DNA of 30,696 nucleotides from a virus. Position 1 is the first letter of the stretch, and the number at the start of each line of letters is the position of its first letter. The notes under the pieces are model-generated. The model was given only the letters and a program-made list of their open reading frames with translations. It did no database searches and had not been told where the DNA came from. The position numbers were made by a program, and so were the translations under genes. Below, one piece after another: positions 4,801 through 28,951 of this stretch. The stretch is from positions 1 to 30,696 of IMG/VR virus record IMGVR_UViG_3300023174_000477. One strand, given 5' to 3'.

Positions 4801-6177
4801 ATGGCACAAAGATTTTACGAACCAATTGCAAGAATATTTACTAACGCTGGAGCTGTTGGCGTTGGCTACAAATATTTTTTCTATCAAACTGGAACAACAA
4901 CGCCAGTTACAACTTATCAAAATGCTGGCTTAACTGTCGCAAATACAAACCCAGTTTTATCTGACGCAAATGGTCGTTTTCCTGAAATTTGGTATTCTGA
5001 TTTATCTCAATTAAAACTTATTGTTAAAGATTCTTCTAACAATACTATTGAAACAGTCGATCCAGTTGGGGCAACCGATGCCGCCGTTTCTCTTAATGAT
5101 TTTGACGTACGCCCAACTTCTTATTGGGGCTTAACTGCTGGCACATCTACAGCTTTTACTTTGATTGCAAATCCACCAATTAGCGCTTATGCTAACACCC
5201 AAACCTTTATTATTCAATTTCATTTAGCTTGTGGCGTTAATCCTACTTTAGCAATTAATGGATTATCCGCATTTAATCTTAAAAAATATAATAGTGCAGG
5301 AGTTAAAGAGAGTTTAATTGCAGGAGATGTTCAGGCGTCATCAAGATATTTAGGAATAAATGATGGTATTGATATTGTTATTTTAAACCCAGAACATCCA
5401 AGCAGATATTACGCAAATTCTACAACTGCGAGAGGATTTACTTATATTCCAAGTCCAATAACAATAGCATTTAATAGTGTAACTTCAATTTCTTTTTCTG
5501 CGGGAAATTTTAATTTTTCAGATGGTTCTGGTCAGGCTATTGCAACGGCAATGACTAAAACATTGCAATCTAGTGGTTCGTGGGCTGCTGGAACTGGTCA
5601 AAATGGTTTAGATACAGGTGCTAAATCTAATTCAACTTGGTATCATTGTTACGCAATTTACAACCCAACAACGTTAGTTAGTGATTTCTTATTTTCGACA
5701 GGAGCGATAACCCCAACAGCTCTGCCAAGTGGTTACACTAAATTTAAACGAGTAGGAAGCATTAAAACTGATGGAAGCGGCAATATATTAGGATTTTTTC
5801 AAAATGGAACTTATTTCTTTTTAAAGATTCCAGTTCTTGATTTTTCTGGTACAAGCACGACTACATTAACAGCAGTAACTTTATCCACCCCTCTAGGAAC
5901 AAAAACAATCGCGATATTATCGGCAACTATTAACGCCTCTGCTGGTAGCACTCGCAGTTTGCGAATTTTTTCAGGAGACGCGAGCGATCAAGCAGTTTCT
6001 GCCAGTTGTTGGAATGGTGTTTATTTAGCTAGTTCGGGAACTACAACTGATATTATTACTGGGAGCGGGAACGTTTTTGTCCCAACCAGCACTTCATCAC
6101 AAGTTTTTCATGAAACATCAGCATCGGCAAGTGTGGCAATTCTTACCCAAGGTTGGATTGATAATGGAATTTTATAA
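4801..6177 (+). CDS. Tail fibre / tailspike protein
   Basis: 458 residues. The first 110 resemble the virion-binding domain of podophage tailspikes and fibres: F-T-N-A-G, a G-Y-K-Y-F-F-Y-Q-T-G-T-T strand, then V-L-S-D-A-N-G-R-F-P-E-I-W and L-K-L-I-V-K-D. The middle is beta-rich and low in charge. The C-terminal half (about 260-458) contains W-Y-H-C-Y-A-I-Y and Y-T-K-F-K-R-V-G-S-I, a module common at the ends of phage fibre proteins. No depolymerase residues were recognised, so it is more likely a binding fibre than an enzymatic spike. The next small gene may be its companion. Confidence 0.7.
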   Translation: MAQRFYEPIARIFTNAGAVGVGYKYFFYQTGTTTPVTTYQNAGLTVANTNPVLSDANGRFPEIWYSDLSQLKLIVKDSSNNTIETVDPVGATDAAVSLNDFDVRPTSYWGLTAGTSTAFTLIANPPISAYANTQTFIIQFHLACGVNPTLAINGLSAFNLKKYNSAGVKESLIAGDVQASSRYLGINDGIDIVILNPEHPSRYYANSTTARGFTYIPSPITIAFNSVTSISFSAGNFNFSDGSGQAIATAMTKTLQSSGSWAAGTGQNGLDTGAKSNSTWYHCYAIYNPTTLVSDFLFSTGAITPTALPSGYTKFKRVGSIKTDGSGNILGFFQNGTYFFLKIPVLDFSGTSTTTLTAVTLSTPLGTKTIAILSATINASAGSTRSLRIFSGDASDQAVSASCWNGVYLASSGTTTDIITGSGNVFVPTSTSSQVFHETSASASVAILTQGWIDNGIL

Positions 6178-6192
6178 TTAATTTTTACAAAA

Positions 6193-6510
6193 ATGAAATA
6201 TTTAAAAAATTTAGAAACAGGCGAGATTATTAAGGGAGATTCATTCGGCTCTTTTTTTGATTCTTGGGCGGAGCTAACTCAAAGCGAGATTGACGCTTAT
6301 GAGTTAGAGCAAGCTAAACTTGCTAAAATAGCACAATGCCAAGCTTATCTTGAAAGCACTGATTGGCAAGCAGTCGCTTTTATTAAATATGCTAGACCAA
6401 TTAACACAAATGTTTTTGAAAATTGCTTAAAAGCTAAACAATGGAAAATTGATATTGCTGCCTGCACAACCTTAGAAGAATTAAACAACATTAATATTGA
6501 TTTTTCATAA
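6193..6510 (+). CDS. Small fibre-associated protein (assembly-like)
   Basis: 105 residues directly after a fibre gene. The central pattern A-Y-L-E-S-T-D-W-Q-A-V-A-F-I-K-Y is like the Y-L-x-S-T-D-W motif in small proteins that follow phage tail-fibre genes, some of which act as fibre chaperones. The rest is helical. There is no signal peptide or membrane segment. A chaperone role is inferred from position and motif only. Confidence 0.45.
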   Translation: MKYLKNLETGEIIKGDSFGSFFDSWAELTQSEIDAYELEQAKLAKIAQCQAYLESTDWQAVAFIKYARPINTNVFENCLKAKQWKIDIAACTTLEELNNINIDFS

Positions 6511-7451: not shown

Positions 7452-8872
7452 TGCTTCAACCAATCCATTTTGGAGTAAATTCATATAAGGCAAAAAGCGG
7501 TTTAATTTCAGCGGAAAGAATGTTGAATTGTTATGCTGAAATAACTCCTCAAACAAGTGCTTTTCCAAATATGGTTTTGGGAACTGCTGGGCTTACTGTT
7601 TGGAAAGACACTGGAGTTTCTTTGCCTGTTTATGGAATGCGGGTAATGGGTGAAAATCTTTATGTAGTAGTAGGAAATAAGGTTTATAAAATAGATTCTT
7701 CAAAAACAGTAACATTATTGGGGAATATTACCACGGAGATTGGAAATGTAATAATGACTGATAACGGAGATCAAGTTACAATTCAACTTCCAAATGGAAT
7801 TACTTATTATTGCACCCCAACCGCTTCTTCTTTAGCTCAAATTACCAATGTTAATTTTAATGCTTCAGGATCAGTTACAACTTTAGACGGATTTACAATA
7901 TCCGCTTTGCTAAATAACAATGAATTTCAATGGTCAAATGTCAATACCACTCAAAATTGGAACGCTTTAAATGCCGCAACTGTCGAGGCTAATTCTTCAA
8001 AAATAGTAAGAGTTTATCAAAACAATTTAGAGCTTTGGTTTTTTAAAGAAAATATTATTCAAGTGTTTTACAATACTGGATCGGGCTCACCTCTGTTTCA
8101 AAGAAAAGAAGGTGTTTATATTGAAAAAGGCTGCGCCTCCAAATATTCAATTGCCACAATGGACAATTCATTTTTCTTTTTAGGAAATGACAGAATTGTT
8201 TATCAAACTATCGGTTATCAATTAAAACCAATTTCTACTTTTCCAATTTCACAAGAAATAGAAAATTACACAACAATTGATGATGCAATTGGTTTTACTT
8301 ACGTCCAAGACGGGCATAAATTTTATTGCTTAACTTTTCCAAATCAAAACAAAACTTGGGAATATGATATTACAACTGAACTTTGGCACGAAAGAGAAAG
8401 TGTGAATAACCAAAGCGTTGATGGAAGATGGAGGGCTAATTGCCATGTTTATTTTGCGGGCAAAAACTTAATTGGCGATTTCCAAACTGGAATTATTTAC
8501 GAAATAGACTCAAATGTTTATAAAGAAAACGAAACAGTAATTAAAAGAGAAATTATTGGAACAACAATGTTTAAAAACTTTGCAAGAATGTCTTTAAATA
8601 AGTTTGTTGTAATGATGGACACTGGCGTTGGAATTGCGACAGGGCAAGGAACTAATCCCCAATTAGTTGGCAGGTTTTCTGATAATGGCGGCAAAACTTA
8701 TACTGATGAATTATGGCAGCCAGTAGGGGTAGAAGGTTCTTTTTTAACAGAGGTATTTTGGACAAAAATAGGCGGAAAAGCCCGTTCTTTTATTGCTAGG
8801 TTAAATTATAGCGAGCCAACTAAGTTCCAAATTGTTGGGGCATTTGTGGGGACTGAAACAGAAGATGATTAA
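7451..8872 (+). CDS. Packaged-DNA stabilisation / tail hub protein, P22 gp10-like
   Basis: 473 residues. The N-terminus carries the signature of the family: R-M-L-N-C-Y-A-E-I, F-P-N-M-V-L-G-T-A-G-L. Beta-strand repeats typical of a propeller-like hub follow: L-Y-V-V-V-G-N-K-V-Y-K, then the long W-F-F-K-E-N-I-I-Q-V-F-Y segment. Members bind the gp4 ring and carry the fibres or spikes. Together with the preceding gene it is the strongest evidence that the virion is P22-like and short-tailed. Confidence 0.7.
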   Translation: MLQPIHFGVNSYKAKSGLISAERMLNCYAEITPQTSAFPNMVLGTAGLTVWKDTGVSLPVYGMRVMGENLYVVVGNKVYKIDSSKTVTLLGNITTEIGNVIMTDNGDQVTIQLPNGITYYCTPTASSLAQITNVNFNASGSVTTLDGFTISALLNNNEFQWSNVNTTQNWNALNAATVEANSSKIVRVYQNNLELWFFKENIIQVFYNTGSGSPLFQRKEGVYIEKGCASKYSIATMDNSFFFLGNDRIVYQTIGYQLKPISTFPISQEIENYTTIDDAIGFTYVQDGHKFYCLTFPNQNKTWEYDITTELWHERESVNNQSVDGRWRANCHVYFAGKNLIGDFQTGIIYEIDSNVYKENETVIKREIIGTTMFKNFARMSLNKFVVMMDTGVGIATGQGTNPQLVGRFSDNGGKTYTDELWQPVGVEGSFLTEVFWTKIGGKARSFIARLNYSEPTKFQIVGAFVGTETEDD

Positions 8873-13115: not shown

Positions 13116-13298
13116 TTAAACCATACCAGTAGCTGCAAAACTCCATTCACATATTGCATTTGTCGGTAGATAACCCATATTAAAATAGTTCTTCCAAGGC
13201 TGCTTACCAATTTTTTCCATTATTTCATCATTAAATCCATATTTGGGGGCTTCTTTCACCAGCAATTTATACCAAATTTCAAATTCTAGTTCAGACAT
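13116..13298 (-). CDS. Hypothetical small phage protein
   Basis: 60 residues, starting S-E-L-E-F-E-I-W-Y-K-L-L-V-K-E-A. It has several Trp and Tyr residues, no membrane segment and a C-terminal I-C-E-W-S-F-A-A-T-G. The first 13 bases overlap the end of the DUF3307-like gene upstream, so the two are probably co-translated. It is the last - strand gene before the convergent late block and lies within the 21-bp-repeat cassette. Function unknown. Confidence 0.5.
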   Translation of the reverse strand: MSELEFEIWYKLLVKEAPKYGFNDEIMEKIGKQPWKNYFNMGYLPTNAICEWSFAATGMV

Positions 13299-13663
13299 GC
13301 AATAATTCCGATATAAGTTAATTGATGAAGAAGTTGGTCGAAGCCAAGCAAATACCAGAATTTCTCTGAATTATCACATTTCCATCCGTAGCGTTTGTTG
13401 ATTTTAACCTTTGCCCAGTCGATGTGGTAGTGAATCACAAAATCAATTCCTGCTAGAAAAAAAACTTGAGCAATAAAAACATCTCTTTCTAAGAAAAAAG
13501 CTGAGATAAAAATTGCCAAGAAAGTTCCTATACAGTGAATTGATGCATGCAAAATCCCGCCACCATGTCCATAAATTCCCTTATTCAAATATTGATAAGG
13601 CTTCTGTAGCGGAAAATCGCAGATAAAATGTTTGAATTGTAGTAAGATTAGAAGTGTTATCAT
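13286..13663 (-). CDS. DUF3307-like membrane protein
   Basis: 125 residues. The opening L-L-Q-F-K-H-F-I-C-D-F-P-L-Q-K-P and a later H-A-S-I-H with D-F-V-I-H-Y-H-I-D-W-A-K match the His/Asp pattern of DUF3307 proteins. Several hydrophobic segments (about 45-62 and 66-82) suggest an integral membrane protein. Function of the family is unknown; it is common in phages and bacterial genomes. With the gene after it, it forms a cassette flanked by 21-bp direct repeats. Confidence 0.6.
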   Translation of the reverse strand: MITLLILLQFKHFICDFPLQKPYQYLNKGIYGHGGGILHASIHCIGTFLAIFISAFFLERDVFIAQVFFLAGIDFVIHYHIDWAKVKINKRYGWKCDNSEKFWYLLGFDQLLHQLTYIGIIACLN

Positions 13664-13699: not shown

Positions 13700-13878
13700 A
13701 ATTTCCTTTTAAGCTCTTTAAAATCTTTGATAAAAAATTCTTTTTTAGTTGAAAGAGTAATTTGTTCGCGATCATTAAATTCATAAGTCCAAACTACCAA
13801 ATCATTTTTTATAAAATCAATTTTAACTACTTTGCCATCAATTGATTGCCATTCACTTCCGATTTCTATTACCGACAT
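13690..13878 (-). CDS. Hypothetical small protein, beta-rich
   Basis: 62 residues: G-S-E-W-Q-S-I-D-G-K-V-V-K-I-D-F-I, then V-V-W-T-Y-E-F and F-I-K-D-F-K-E-L. This strand pattern resembles small phage proteins with an SH3/KOW-like barrel. It starts within the end of the upstream gene (overlap about 10 bp). Its 3' end lies in the 21-bp repeat. Function unknown. Confidence 0.5.
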   Translation of the reverse strand: MSVIEIGSEWQSIDGKVVKIDFIKNDLVVWTYEFNDREQITLSTKKEFFIKDFKELKRKFTS

Positions 13879-14555
13879 TTCTTAAGCTCCTCAATATCTT
13901 TCTGCATTTGCTCGAAGGAGTTGATGAAATCAGTTAAGGTAGTAGCTTCTTTTATATTTTTATCAATTTGATTATCGTCAGTGAGAATATTAGAAAGTAT
14001 AGGCATAATAACTCTTTCATCTTTTAATCTAACTAAAAATTGTTCATTTCGCTTGTCTAATTCTTTTAAATCATCATTATCCTTCCAAATACTTCTTGGA
14101 TCGACACGTTCTTCTTTCATGTCGATTTTAGGCTCCTCTTTAGACACTTCAAGCCAAAATTCTGGTTGAACTTCTTCATTACCACCCTCTTCGTAAAGAG
14201 AATACCATTTATTTAAAAACCAATTTGCTTTGAATATTTTGTGTCTTTTATTAGTGCTTTGTTTAACAGTTATTGGTGAGCCACACTTTGGCGCACAAGA
14301 CATTGGCAACCATTTAGGCTCTGTAGTTGGTTCTTTCTCTGTTTCCTGCAAGTTGTCTTCTGCAAGTTCTTCACAGATATTACAAAAAGATGCTAGTGGT
14401 AGCGGATCACTACAAACATCGCCCCTCTTTTCAAGGTAAAGCTTGCAAGAAAAATCTTTATCCACGCTAACAACGATCACTATTTCGCCGTTGCCTTTTC
14501 CAAATTGATTTCTAAGTTTATATCTTCTCCCCACCATTGGCATTTTATTTGTCAT
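13869..14555 (-). CDS. Hypothetical protein with a DUF551-like central domain
   Basis: 228 residues with an AAGGAA ribosome site. Residues about 1-60 form a small beta domain with several Cys. Residues about 80-140 start W-L-P-M-S-C-A-P-K-C-G-S-P-I-T-V and end P-E-F-W-L-E-V, the W-x-P-x-x-x-A-P-x-x-G layout of DUF551-type phage proteins (compare 23991-24221). The last 90 residues are charged helix, probably coiled coil. It looks like a three-part fusion. Function unknown. A non-coding, hairpin-rich stretch lies upstream. Confidence 0.5.
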   Translation of the reverse strand: MTNKMPMVGRRYKLRNQFGKGNGEIVIVVSVDKDFSCKLYLEKRGDVCSDPLPLASFCNICEELAEDNLQETEKEPTTEPKWLPMSCAPKCGSPITVKQSTNKRHKIFKANWFLNKWYSLYEEGGNEEVQPEFWLEVSKEEPKIDMKEERVDPRSIWKDNDDLKELDKRNEQFLVRLKDERVIMPILSNILTDDNQIDKNIKEATTLTDFINSFEQMQKDIEELKKCR

Positions 14556-14559
14556 TTCC

Positions 14560-14768
14560 TTCTTCTTATTTGTTAATTAATACCTTACCACGCCAGACCA
14601 ACTCTTTGCTAAAGAAGCATTATTCAAAGGCTTTCCCCAATTTACAATGGGCTGCGGTTGATCTGGCTTGGAAAGGGATTAAAACGAAGCCAGAACGCAC
14701 CTAAACGATGCAATAAATCAAATGTCCTGACTTCGTATATTAAACAGAAAGCTAAGTTTAGAGCTGCA
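14560..14768 (-). ncRNA. Candidate structured RNA A
   Basis: No reading frame of note. On the - strand a clear hairpin is formed by 14662-14669 and 14687-14694 (TCTGGCTT/AAGCCAGA on +, 8 bp, 17-base loop). The loop bases GGAAAG (14670-14675) are complementary to CTTTCC (14631-14636), a possible pseudoknot. GCCAGA (14592-14597) could compete for the same TCTGGC arm. CTAAAC (14701-14706) pairs with GTTTAG (14756-14761). It directly follows the first acb2-like gene. No known class was recognised. Confidence 0.45.
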
Positions 14769-14770
14769 TT

Positions 14771-15010
14771 TTAAGCCGTTGCAGCTTTAACAGCCCACAT
14801 AGCAGCTTCTTCATAAGCTGTCATTGATAAACTTTTTAATCTGCCCACTCCAGATTTTGAACCACCTCTATTTTCATCGAGACTTTCAACTAAATTTATT
14901 AATTCTGCTGTTTTTTGTTTAATCAAATCAACCTTTTCAGTTTTTGAAGGATTAAACTCTGTTCTTACGCGGATTTCGCCAATTGATATATCGAGGTGAT
15001 AGAGATTCAA
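14771..15010 (-). CDS. Acb2/Tad1-like small protein, copy 1 (putative anti-CBASS/Thoeris sponge)
   Basis: 79 residues from a TTG start at 15010. It shares with the gene at 26876-27121 a layout of E-F-N near residue 19, a helix K-V-D-L-I-K-Q-K-T-A-E-L-I-N-L-V, a loop, and a final helix Y-E-E-A-A-M-W-A-V-K-A-A-T. The helical hairpin ending L/Y-E-x-A-x-M-W-A matches the Acb2/Tad1 hairpin family. Characterised members are small oligomers that bind cyclic nucleotides and blunt CBASS or Thoeris. The normal ATG appears lost: its 5' end is built from one arm of a palindrome. AAGGTG lies 12 bases upstream. The family call is by eye. Confidence 0.5.
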   Translation of the reverse strand: MNLYHLDISIGEIRVRTEFNPSKTEKVDLIKQKTAELINLVESLDENRGGSKSGVGRLKSLSMTAYEEAAMWAVKAATA

Positions 15011-15028
15011 ATTGAATCTCTATCACCT
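14994..15028. repeat. 35-nt palindrome (two 17-bp arms, 1-base centre)
   Basis: AGGTGATAGAGATTCAA at 14994-15010 is the exact reverse complement of 15012-15028, with a single A at 15011. The right arm belongs to the 94-bp duplication; the left arm has become the first codons of the acb2-like gene. In the mRNA it would form a hairpin over the TTG start. Such near-zero-spacer palindromes arise by fold-back template switching, or can be an assembly artefact. Confidence 0.85.
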
Positions 15029-15105
15029 TTTGAAGTCTTTTAATTATTTTCATACCTTTTTGAGCAGACAATGTTTCGCCCGCATCATAAGAATCATACT
15101 GATAA
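15012..15105. repeat. 94-bp direct repeat, copy 1
   Basis: Matches 17073-17166 with one mismatch (C at 15081 against T at 17142). This copy is in the broken gene fragment before the acb2-like gene; the other is within an intact gene. The near identity shows a recent duplication. Confidence 0.9.
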
Positions 15106-15136
15106 TAGCTCATTTTTTTTTGTTTTTAATTAATAA

Positions 15137-15243
15137 ATGCCGCTATTCAACCTTTTTGTAAGTTGCGGCTTACTTATGCCCTTTTACGGGTTTCCTCACG
15201 CTTGAATTACGCGCCTATATTTCAAGGTACAGGATTTTCGCCT
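15137..15243 (-). ncRNA. Candidate structured RNA B
   Basis: No gene lies here. Hairpins include GCCGC (15139-15143) with GCGGC (15165-15169), extended inside by AAC/GTT; CCC (15179-15181) with GGG (15188-15190); and CTTGAA (15201-15206) with TTCAAG (15221-15226). The stretch separates the 15244-15645 gene from the acb2-like module and is richer in G and C than the genes around it. It is shorter and less convincing than regions C, D and E. Confidence 0.35.
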
Positions 15244-15645
15244 TCATCTTTGCCAAGGCTGGCTTAATAATTTTATTCTATTTTGCATTTGTTTAGCTGA
15301 AATTTCGTCCTCTATTGCTTTTTCTTTATGATCTTCCGCCCATTCTAAATAATTTTTTAACCAAAGTTTACAATCATTGATATAAACTTTAAGAGCTTTT
15401 TCTTTATTTAAAAAGAATCTTTTATCACTAAATGTAATTTTGCCATTTTGTATAGTCATTAATATTTCTTGATTCCACCCTTGGAAAGTATAGTGTTCAA
15501 TTTTTTTATTTTTTTCATATGAAATGCTTTTTATTTCTAATTTTTCTTCACATTGTTCAAATGTTTTTCTCATCAAAGCATCGCAGCAATAAATAACAGT
15601 TCCGTCAGGTAGAGTTGGCTCCCACTTTTGTTTTTTTCTTTTCAT
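15244..15645 (-). CDS. Hypothetical protein between two RNA regions
   Basis: 133 residues, basic at the N-terminus (K-R-K-K-Q-K-W-E-P) and helical at the C-terminus. There is a beta-rich middle (G-T-V-I-Y-C-C-D, then H-Y-T-F-Q-G-W-N-Q-E-I-L-M-T-I) and no membrane segment or known motif. It lies between candidate RNAs C (upstream) and B (downstream). No function can be given. Confidence 0.5.
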   Translation of the reverse strand: MKRKKQKWEPTLPDGTVIYCCDALMRKTFEQCEEKLEIKSISYEKNKKIEHYTFQGWNQEILMTIQNGKITFSDKRFFLNKEKALKVYINDCKLWLKNYLEWAEDHKEKAIEDEISAKQMQNRIKLLSQPWQR

Positions 15646-15659
15646 ATTCTTTAGTTAAT

Positions 15660-16018
15660 TGATATTTTTGTTAAGTTCTTTTAAAGCGGCACTGGCAGAG
15701 AATTTCACTCTGCACGAACGGCATTTTCAGTTGATATGATACGTTTGCGCTGGATACAAGCCCACGTATCGGTATCTTAATAAACCATCTAGCTGGTTCC
15801 GTTTATTAAAACCTACATCCTAACTATCCGTTCATAAACTCTGAATACAGCTAGATATAAGCAGAGTTATTTGAACATTTTGTCTTATTCCAACACAGTG
15901 CCGCCATAAAAAAACTCACGAAGCAGAACCAGAAAAGCAATTTCACAGAACTTTTCTGATTCCGCCCCAGTGGAAGACTGTTTTCAGCCTATCTCTTACG
16001 AGATTCTTTGCCTAATCT
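15660..16018 (-). ncRNA. Candidate structured RNA C with multibranch domain and kissing loops
   Basis: About 360 bases with no gene. GCGGCACTG (15686-15694) pairs perfectly with CAGTGCCGC (15896-15904) and closes a domain. Inside are hairpins 15695-15700/15708-15713 (6 bp), 15738-15744/15764-15770 (7 bp), 15777-15785/15801-15809 (9 bp) and 15837-15843/15862-15868 (7 bp). The last two expose loops with ATCTAGCTG (15787-15795) and its exact complement CAGCTAGAT (15848-15856), a 9-bp kissing interaction. Outside the domain are an 8-bp hairpin (15930-15937/15951-15958) and, on the - strand, ATCTC-GTAA-GAGAT, a GNRA tetraloop. The RNA class is unknown. Confidence 0.65.
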
Positions 16019-16240
16019 TTAGCTGGCAAGCTTTAAATCTTTTTTAAAAATCTCAAACTCCTTTTCCATTGCCTTGCGAAAAATCCTTGAATAGCAAAAA
16101 GTTTTATTTGCTTTTTTCATGATTTTTATTTTGTTGTCCGTTTTCACGTCACTAGAAATATAAATCCGAGTATATTTCTCTTCTGGTTTTTTACGAGGTC
16201 TTCCACGTAGTTTCTTTGCCGCAGTTTTATTGTCAATCAT
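16019..16240 (-). CDS. Small DNA-binding protein (AT-hook plus ribbon-helix-helix-like)
   Basis: 73 residues. The N-terminus contains L-R-G-R-P-R-K-K-P, an AT-hook-like minor-groove motif. Then K-Y-T-R-I-Y-I-S-S-D-V looks like the strand of a ribbon-helix-helix repressor, followed by two basic helices. A regulator of nearby promoters is plausible. Its ATG overlaps the stop of the VRR-NUC gene, and candidate RNA C begins right after its stop. Confidence 0.5.
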   Translation of the reverse strand: MIDNKTAAKKLRGRPRKKPEEKYTRIYISSDVKTDNKIKIMKKANKTFCYSRIFRKAMEKEFEIFKKDLKLAS

Positions 16241-16972: not shown

Positions 16973-17219
16973 CTTCTACAATCTCCAAACGTCCTTTAAA
17001 GTTAAATCCTGAGCCGCGTAATTCGTCTTCAAGCATTGCAACCATTTCTTCTAATGTTTTAAGTGCTACGCTTTGAATCTCTATCACCTTTTGAAGTCTT
17101 TTAATTATTTTCATACCTTTTTGAGCAGACAATGTTTCGCCTGCATCATAAGAATCATACTGATAAGTCTGACTTGATAATTTCTCAAACTCCGCTATCT
17201 CTTCCCTAAGAGTTACCAT
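16962..17219 (-). CDS. Hypothetical coiled-coil protein (parent of the 15-kb fragment)
   Basis: 85 residues with helices E-E-I-A-E-F-E-K-L and I-I-K-R-L-Q-K-V-I-E, then a Leu/Glu coiled coil. Codons for about residues 19-49 are duplicated at 15012-15105. It overlaps the 48-codon gene upstream by 14 bases. Function unknown. Confidence 0.5.
   Translation of the reverse strand: MVTLREEIAEFEKLSSQTYQYDSYDAGETLSAQKGMKIIKRLQKVIEIQSVALKTLEEMVAMLEDELRGSGFNFKGRLEIVEDEK
17073..17166. repeat. 94-bp direct repeat, copy 2 (parent copy)
   Basis: Lies inside the intact gene at 16962-17219 and matches 15012-15105 at 93 of 94 positions. Confidence 0.9.
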
Positions 17220-26875: not shown

Positions 26876-27121
26876 TTAACGCTTTTTAGAAGTAGCTAAT
26901 TTAACCGCAAACATAGCAGCGGTTTCATAATGTAAAATTGCAAAATCTCTCAATCTTACAATTTCTTCTTGATTTTCAAATGAACTATCACAAGAAATAT
27001 TTTGAACAATATTAATTAAATCAGCTGATAGTTTTTTGATTTCATCAACTTTGCTATTAAAAGAAGCGTTAAAATCAATTCTTACAATTTCCTCTCCTTT
27101 ACTTTTTATTGAAGTATCCAT
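26876..27121 (-). CDS. Acb2/Tad1-like small protein, copy 2 (putative anti-CBASS/Thoeris sponge)
   Basis: 81 residues, ATG start. Layout matches copy 1: V-R-I-D-F-N, helix K-V-D-E-I-K-K-L-S-A-D-L-I-N-I-V, loop, then R-L-R-D-F-A-I-L-H-Y-E-T-A-A-M-F-A-V-K-L-A-T. Several conserved positions of the Acb2/Tad1 hairpin (E-x-A-x-M-x-A) are kept. The two copies differ at many residues, so the duplication is old or the copies came separately; different ligand preferences are possible. It is flanked by RNA regions E (upstream) and D (downstream). The family call is by eye. Confidence 0.5.
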   Translation of the reverse strand: MDTSIKSKGEEIVRIDFNASFNSKVDEIKKLSADLINIVQNISCDSSFENQEEIVRLRDFAILHYETAAMFAVKLATSKKR

Positions 27122-28405: not shown

Positions 28406-28951
28406 TTAAATTAAGTTTTGATTCCAGATTTCAAGCGGCAAATATTTTCGACAAATATCGGCGGTTTGTTTTTGGTTTTGCTTTTGCTTTTTTGCAGCAC
28501 CAGCAGCATCAGCACCAGCAGCAGCAGCAAAAGTAGCATCAGCAGCAAAAGTAGCAGCAAAAGCAGCATTAGCACCAGCAGCAGCAGCAACAACAGCAGC
28601 AGCAAAAGTAGCATCAGCAGCAAAAGTAGCATCAGCAGCAAAAGTAGCATCAGCAGCAGCAGCGTCTAATTCTTTCCTTGTCGCTTTTTCTTCGCCAAAA
28701 GCAATTGCAACATCAACCGCTCTAGTGCTTCGCTTGTCTTTCATCAATTCCCGCACTGTATTTGTGCAATGTGCTTTCGCCAAAGTCAATTCTGGCAAAG
28801 AATTAGGATTAGTTTTAGCAAAAAGCCATAAAATCCAATCACCGCGTTCGCAGGTGCTTAAAAACTCTTCCAAAGTTAAATTTTTCGCAAAGTCAAAGCC
28901 ATCTTTGCAAGCGTGGTTTTTTTCTAAAAATTCTTTTAATGTTTTTTTCAT
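28406..28951 (-). CDS. Alanine-rich repeat protein of phages
   Basis: 181 residues. Unique N-terminal 90 (helical, with W-I-L-W-L-F-A-K and R-E-L-M-K-D-K-R-S-T-R-A-V-D-V-A-I-A-F). Then comes a low-complexity block of A-A-D-A-T-F-A units, and a C-terminal K-Q-T-A-D-I-C-R-K-Y-L-P-L. Proteins with an Ala-rich repeat before a '(A/C)-D-I-x-R-K' end are frequent in phage genomes. The repeat should form a long helix or helical coil. Function unknown. Confidence 0.6.
   Translation of the reverse strand: MKKTLKEFLEKNHACKDGFDFAKNLTLEEFLSTCERGDWILWLFAKTNPNSLPELTLAKAHCTNTVRELMKDKRSTRAVDVAIAFGEEKATRKELDAAAADATFAADATFAADATFAAAVVAAAAGANAAFAATFAADATFAAAAGADAAGAAKKQKQNQKQTADICRKYLPLEIWNQNLI
28497..28655. repeat. 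Low-complexity GCA/AGC-rich repeat block
   Basis: Irregular tandem units (AGCAGCAAAAGTAGCATC and variants) coding the A-A-D-A-T-F repeats. The same block gives long spurious frames of Ser or Leu in other phases. Confidence 0.85.

Follow-up and report, generated by a model that had tools for sequence, protein, structure and literature searches.

The locus (16029–14575, minus strand) spans about 1,440 bases of a bacterial virus and comprises two conserved folded RNA domains flanking a variable middle; all coordinates refer to the window, by which we mean the whole stretch of viral DNA analyzed (30,696 nucleotides). The 5′ domain was first noticed as a folded stretch without genes amid phage genes (15660–16018); delimited here as 15660–16035 on the minus strand, it matches model R2, is homologous to stretches in the related contigs L005, L006, L007, and L002, and in its proper extent comprises 16029–15660 plus 15265–15240. 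The window copy of the 3′ domain was located at 14575–14680 (minus strand), and the locus is therefore approximately 1.44 kb long, of which the initial annotation had described the 5′ domain only: the folded stretch it reported is genuine, while the second domain, some 900 nt away, had been missed. From the first to the last anchor motif, the locus measures 1,439 nt in the window, 837 nt in L007, 1,099 nt in L006, and 2,441 nt in L005, a span of 0.84–2.4 kb in relatives.

The region 15646–16018 contains no ORF of at least 50 aa, and none of its frames stays free of stops for more than 46 codons; a protein-coding role for the folded stretch was rejected on these grounds. Its 373 bases fold on the minus strand at −126.7 kcal/mol (z −8.5), a value that none of 100 shuffles equaled, and folding is therefore far beyond chance; the same bases give z −5.5 on the plus strand. 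The initial annotation had assigned only its upstream hairpins to the minus strand, correctly, and the rest of the element belongs there as well: in a five-sequence alignment, every one of the 295 pair cells holds a standard pair on the minus strand; 44 of these are G-U, which leaves 251 that could form on the plus strand. Scans for promoter-like sites and terminators performed no better than on shuffled sequence.

Compensatory changes preserve base pairing in both domains

The 5′ domain opens with a terminal element, TTGCCAGCTAAAGATTAGGCAA (16008–16029, minus strand), which is constant in five relatives bar one loop base. This element can form either a local 5-bp hairpin or a pairing with the conserved element AAGCCAGCCTTGGCAAAGATGAAGGC at the end of the domain (15240–15265, minus strand), thereby closing the domain, and both alternatives are possible in all five. 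Next is a GNRA hairpin, AUCUC-GUAA-GAGAU (15991–16005, minus strand), previously recognized by its GTAA tetraloop; in two relatives it reads AUUCC-GAAA-GGAAU, the loop changing from GTAA to GAAA while the stem covaries through two compensatory pairs. Within the upstream part, the hairpin that folds most strongly has 20 bp and belongs to the conserved core (about 15969–15918, minus strand); 100% of its cells are paired in five sequences, with one-sided changes only. The perfect 9-bp helix described at the outset, in which GCGGCACTG (15686–15694) is the exact complement of CAGTGCCGC (15896–15904), extends to a closing helix of 22 pairs, RNA-strand 15918–15896 with 15694–15672 (minus strand); three of these pairs have changed on both sides and none is broken, the letters being GGCGGCACTG/CAGTGCCGC in the window and GGCAACGCTG/CAGCGTTGC in L005. 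Within this helix lie a small hairpin, UUG-GAAUAAGA-CAA (15880–15893, minus strand), with UCG/CGA and GCG/CGC in relatives and two pairs changed on both sides, and a hairpin GCAGAG-UGAAAUU-CUCUGC (15695–15713, minus strand) kept in four of five relatives.

The 3′ domain consists of an 18-bp hairpin (CGAAGTCAGGAC..GTTCTGGCTTCG; 14684–14737, minus strand), supported by fold and covariation, and a long helix around two small hairpins; the region 14565–14775 folds with z −5.3. Model R1, built from five other contigs with the window excluded, found the window copy independently (14575–14680, minus strand; 124.5 bits, E 7e-34), and covariation is seen in this part too. Under stricter filters, the same model gave no match across 1,149 bacterial genomes of three classes, which is weak evidence. 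An 18-mer of the domain has six exact matches in bacterial genomes, none accompanied by the rest of the domain, and we therefore attribute these to chance.

Base pairing is kept by compensatory change on the minus strand. In the alignment of the 5′ core (five relatives, interior modules removed before aligning), all 295 cells of 61 pairs are paired, seven pairs have changed on both sides, and none is broken; 11 cells carry two-sided changes versus 4.5 in shuffles (0 of 500 reaching this number), and sliding the partners by 1–3 columns leaves only 0–1 pairs changed on both sides. The 3′ part, aligned after removal of the linker insert from the L005 and L006 rows, has 55 pairs, 96.8% paired, with seven changed on both sides and nine two-sided cells versus 4.1 in shuffles (0 of 500; 0–2 pairs in the slid control). 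Between the window and L005, 20 of 372 positions differ, with two-sided changes in four pairs, of which one rests on the consensus structure rather than a single-sequence fold; the 5′ domain, 95.2% identical between these contigs, is better conserved than its neighboring genes, three genes being 84.8, 85.1, and 77.7% identical. The whole L007 RNA and that of L009 fold with z −7.4 and −8.4, respectively. The claim of a structured non-coding RNA thus withstood the comparison with homologs, in which covariation was found and protein-coding conservation was not, and every sequence feature on which it had been based was recovered in place by direct reading. That this is a structured phage RNA not described before, composed of two conserved domains, is, in our assessment, very likely.

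Two hairpin loops within the closing helix display exact 9-nt complements, as had been noted: ATCTAGCTG (15787–15795, minus strand) and CAGCTAGAT (15848–15856, minus strand). The free minimum-energy fold partly closes one of the two loops, leaving only 6 nt free; keeping both 9-mers open costs 3.7 kcal/mol, versus −12.0 kcal/mol for the duplex. Among 300 shuffles the longest loop–loop complement was 7 nt, reached twice; the complement is real and unlikely to arise by chance. It belongs to a module outside the conserved core that is present, and identical, only in the window and L005 and absent from other members; as a swappable module in two contigs without variation, the candidate kissing loops are beyond the reach of covariation. 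They fit a putative role in assembly but do not prove it. The window and L007 share an 8-nt complement between the 5′ loop and the 3′ domain, but it is missing from L005 and L006 and no claim is built on it.

Whole modules are exchanged between phages within intact helices

Relatives were retrieved from IMG/VR via the neighboring 133-aa ORF (L002 and L003), via the upstream gene (L004), and by DNA patterns from conserved stretches (L005, L006, L007, L008, L009, and L010). L003, L004, and L005 are one contig, and the phage of L008 is almost identical to that of L005; the set thus comprises eight contigs, two nearly identical, with five to six closely related sequences per alignment. The IMG/VR scans required exact short matches, and more diverged members would therefore escape; a looser 3′-domain pattern brought no further contig from IMG/VR, and isolated phages and plasmid records yielded no convincing DNA relative.

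All-against-all comparison revealed a modular 5′ domain. TTGCCAGCTAAAGATTAGGCAA and the GNRA hairpin are followed by a short hairpin in the window, L005, and L006 and by a domain of about 240 nt in L007 and L002; then come the 20-bp hairpin and the 22-bp closing helix, which encloses an exchangeable module: some 200 nt with the 9-nt loops (window, L005), a shorter one (L006, L007), or an unrelated one (L002). Whole modules have thus been exchanged between phages within intact helices. The two domains are also separable, L002 having no 3′ domain and L010 and L009 no window-type 5′ domain; the 3′ domain occurs in seven of the eight contigs and the window-type 5′ domain in five. The window, L005, L006, L007, and L002 have other genes in common. 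L009 (G005) is podovirus-like, unlike these tape-measure phages, with a head-tail adaptor nearest those of Pelagibacter podoviruses (~31%); what it has in common with the window is limited to the 3′ part and a single stretch of about 830 nt (5508–6337). Given the 3′ domain in this otherwise unlike phage, the RNA appears to move between phage types.

The linker between the domains varies, carrying protein genes in the window, a tRNA-Gln in L006, and tRNA-like pieces in L005 and L009. In the window, a 133-aa ORF (15244–15645, minus strand) lies between the 5′ domain and the element 15240–15265; it occupies the same site in L002 and L005 and is absent from L006 and L007. Its product matches no Pfam or PHROG profile, including those of endonucleases and reverse transcriptases, and its fold model has a pLDDT of 43. 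A window-unique, weakly structured stretch (15130–15239, minus strand; z −1.8 for 15125–15275) also belongs to the linker, as does a gene with an Acb2/Tad1 hairpin domain (14771–15010, minus strand; PF24729, E 6e-13, 49 bits against a cut-off of 27). This gene, over the cut-off in the window alone among the eight contigs, is predicted to encode a cyclic-nucleotide sponge with anti-CBASS or anti-Thoeris activity. These cargo genes and the mosaic build had been overlooked in the initial annotation, although its structured RNA itself held up.

In L006 the linker tRNA-Gln is canonical and flanked by two copies of one hairpin arm; the tRNA-like pieces of L009 (27 bits) and L005 (17 bits) fall below the Rfam gathering score and are degenerate, with CCA ends. 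L007 has no linker gene, its domains being contiguous over 837 nt, and the window and L007 keep both domains without a recognized tRNA. In the L005 linker, two direct copies of AAGCCAGCCTTGGCAAAGATGAAGGC (50 nt at 98% identity) flank a gene of 157 aa that runs in the opposite direction.

Several further features of these contigs were recorded. In L005, the 157-aa gene and its flanking repeats (7870–8742) resemble a gained cassette, and the C-terminus of the encoded protein resembles, by eye, the product of the gene that precedes the RNA in L006. The window contains two copies, 99% identical, of a 94-nt piece of a gene (15012–15105 and 17073–17166); this duplicated piece is joined to the acb2-like gene where a perfect inverted repeat of 17 nt with a 1-nt spacer lies (14994–15028), through either a recent rearrangement or an assembly artefact. 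The window also contains a second weak Acb2-like match (26900–27052, minus strand; 18.6 bits, under the cut-off), a DUF3307 membrane protein gene of moron type (13286–13663, minus strand; PF11750, phrog_2470), and two overlapping direct-repeat copies of 75–93 nt at 85–89% identity (28494–28663). The L005 contig encodes a nicotinamide phosphoribosyltransferase (L017 694–1971, minus strand; phrog_448, E 1e-130), possibly serving to rebuild NAD+ against defense. PADLOC scores for Cas6 and DpdC were weak and were disregarded.

Possible roles of the RNA

We propose, with a probability of about one half, that the locus 16029–14575 (minus strand) is a large modular non-coding phage RNA outside Rfam that acts as a scaffold presenting or protecting its linker cargo. 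The 5′ domain (16029–15660 plus 15265–15240) and the 3′ domain (14737–14575) are its folded units and would be joined in one transcript, as suggested by the 837 contiguous nt of L007 without an intervening gene. The variable linker carries the cargo, a tRNA or tRNA-like piece in some phages and protein genes (the 133-aa ORF, the Acb2-like gene) in others. The RNA would serve as a structural scaffold, probably through loop–loop contacts within or between copies, and would present or protect what the linker holds, as proposed for the GOLLD and ROOL cages. GOLLD shares the layout of two domains and a cargo linker, and by this analogy scaffolding or self-assembly is the leading candidate mechanism; self-assembly taken by itself is a tentative suggestion, rather doubtful. 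Quite unlikely, in our view, is the fullest form of the idea, in which the RNA would be a third kind of self-assembling phage cage or scaffold, unrelated in sequence to GOLLD and ROOL, with messenger cargo (including an Acb2-type anti-defense gene) and tRNAs, its modules traded between unrelated phages.

The absence of the 3′ domain from L002 and of this 5′ domain from L010 and L009 means that two RNAs may be present. Such separate occurrence would suit a polycistronic precursor from a phage tRNA/small-RNA region, processed into folded RNAs that function individually (as tRNA-like decoys to counter a host tRNA-cutting defense, for instance), as would the tRNA-Gln of L006 between its repeated hairpin arms and the degenerate pieces with CCA ends in L005 and L009. 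However, the window and L007 retain both domains with no recognized tRNA, domain order is the same in all four contigs that have both, and the ends of the 5′ domain are able to pair in five of five, and we regard a precursor as unlikely.

The 3′ domain ends about 20–30 nt before the start codon of the gene at 13869–14555, and its AAGG strand is paired; it could mask a ribosome-binding site within a cis-acting leader, riboswitch- or attenuator-like, that regulates the downstream gene. Yet the domain precedes different genes in L005, L006, L007, and L009, the genes in the window and L010 have their own ribosome-binding site further down, and a length of 0.8–2.4 kb with an internal tRNA would be unusual. 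Upstream and downstream genes differ among relatives, and the RNA is therefore not the leader of one gene; regulation of this kind is improbable. Equally improbable is a DNA-level recombination platform, hairpin-rich DNA that gains and loses cassettes (the 133-aa ORF, acb2, a winged-helix-like gene) with RNA structure as a by-product. The direct repeats around the L005 cassettes, the fusion of upstream genes at the same start motif, and the 35-nt palindrome and 94-nt duplication of the window linker would accord with such a platform, but the minus strand alone accommodates the G-U pairs and the exchanges between G-U and A-U (295 versus 251 of 295 cells), and DNA hairpins would not need them. 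A self-splicing intron or other ribozyme is highly improbable: ORFs do lie inside the structured RNA, as in mobile introns, but Rfam returns neither an intron nor a ribozyme at E ≤ 10, no host gene is split, and the ORF matches no endonuclease or reverse transcriptase. Protein coding, a leader for one gene, and an intron are all disfavored, which leaves a large structured RNA with a cargo linker between two folded ends.

The genes and tRNAs carried in the linker, together with the trading of modules across types of phage, offer testable hints on function, and the L007 member, 837 nt long with no gene between its domains, lends itself directly to structural studies.

Comparison with known large RNAs

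Few large ornate RNAs are known from phages. Rfam searches at gathering score (window, L002, L003, and L006) and at E limits of 5–10 (window, L005, L006, L007, and L009) returned only the L006 tRNA over threshold. Membership of GOLLD or ROOL, raised initially as worth testing, is not supported: RF02032 matched none of the eight contigs at E ≤ 10 and RF03087 gave no match at that limit. The control genomes likewise showed no match over cut-off for either model, and a very distant kinship may therefore exist. E-values in this analysis stem from a short calibration. In our judgment, the RNA represents a family not described before among the large ornate RNAs of phages.

OLE RNA is likewise large, ornate, and non-coding; it is bacterial rather than phage-borne, and the present RNA has no Rfam match. 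HEARO RNA and group I and II introns resemble it as structured RNAs adjoining or enclosing a small ORF and differ in that there is no Rfam match here and, by profile search, the ORF encodes neither a nuclease nor a reverse transcriptase. ROOL (RF03087) is closer in kind, being phage-encoded, large, and ornate, with loop–loop contacts proposed; it differs in the lack of a covariance-model match. For the conserved intermolecular kissing loop of ROOL, the candidate counterpart here is the 9-nt loop complement, which is real, invariant, and present in two contigs only.

GOLLD (RF02032) offers the nearest parallel, and its choice for comparison, with ROOL, proved sensible. GOLLD RNAs are phage RNAs, many over 800 nt, with conserved 3′ and variable 5′ regions (PMC12286853); in the RNA cage each region is a domain of its own, and the linker, which is variable and sometimes includes a tRNA, lies inside (PMC12286853). 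The present RNA likewise has a conserved 3′ region (seven of eight contigs), a variable 5′ region (this 5′ domain in five), and a linker tRNA, the tRNA-Gln of L006. It differs in its whole-module swaps within the 5′ domain, in the protein genes of its linkers, and in having no detectable sequence or structure kinship; the homo-oligomeric RNA cage of GOLLD has a merely putative counterpart here. If the GOLLD layout recurs in an independent family of unrelated sequence, the design would seem to have evolved more than once and to benefit phages.
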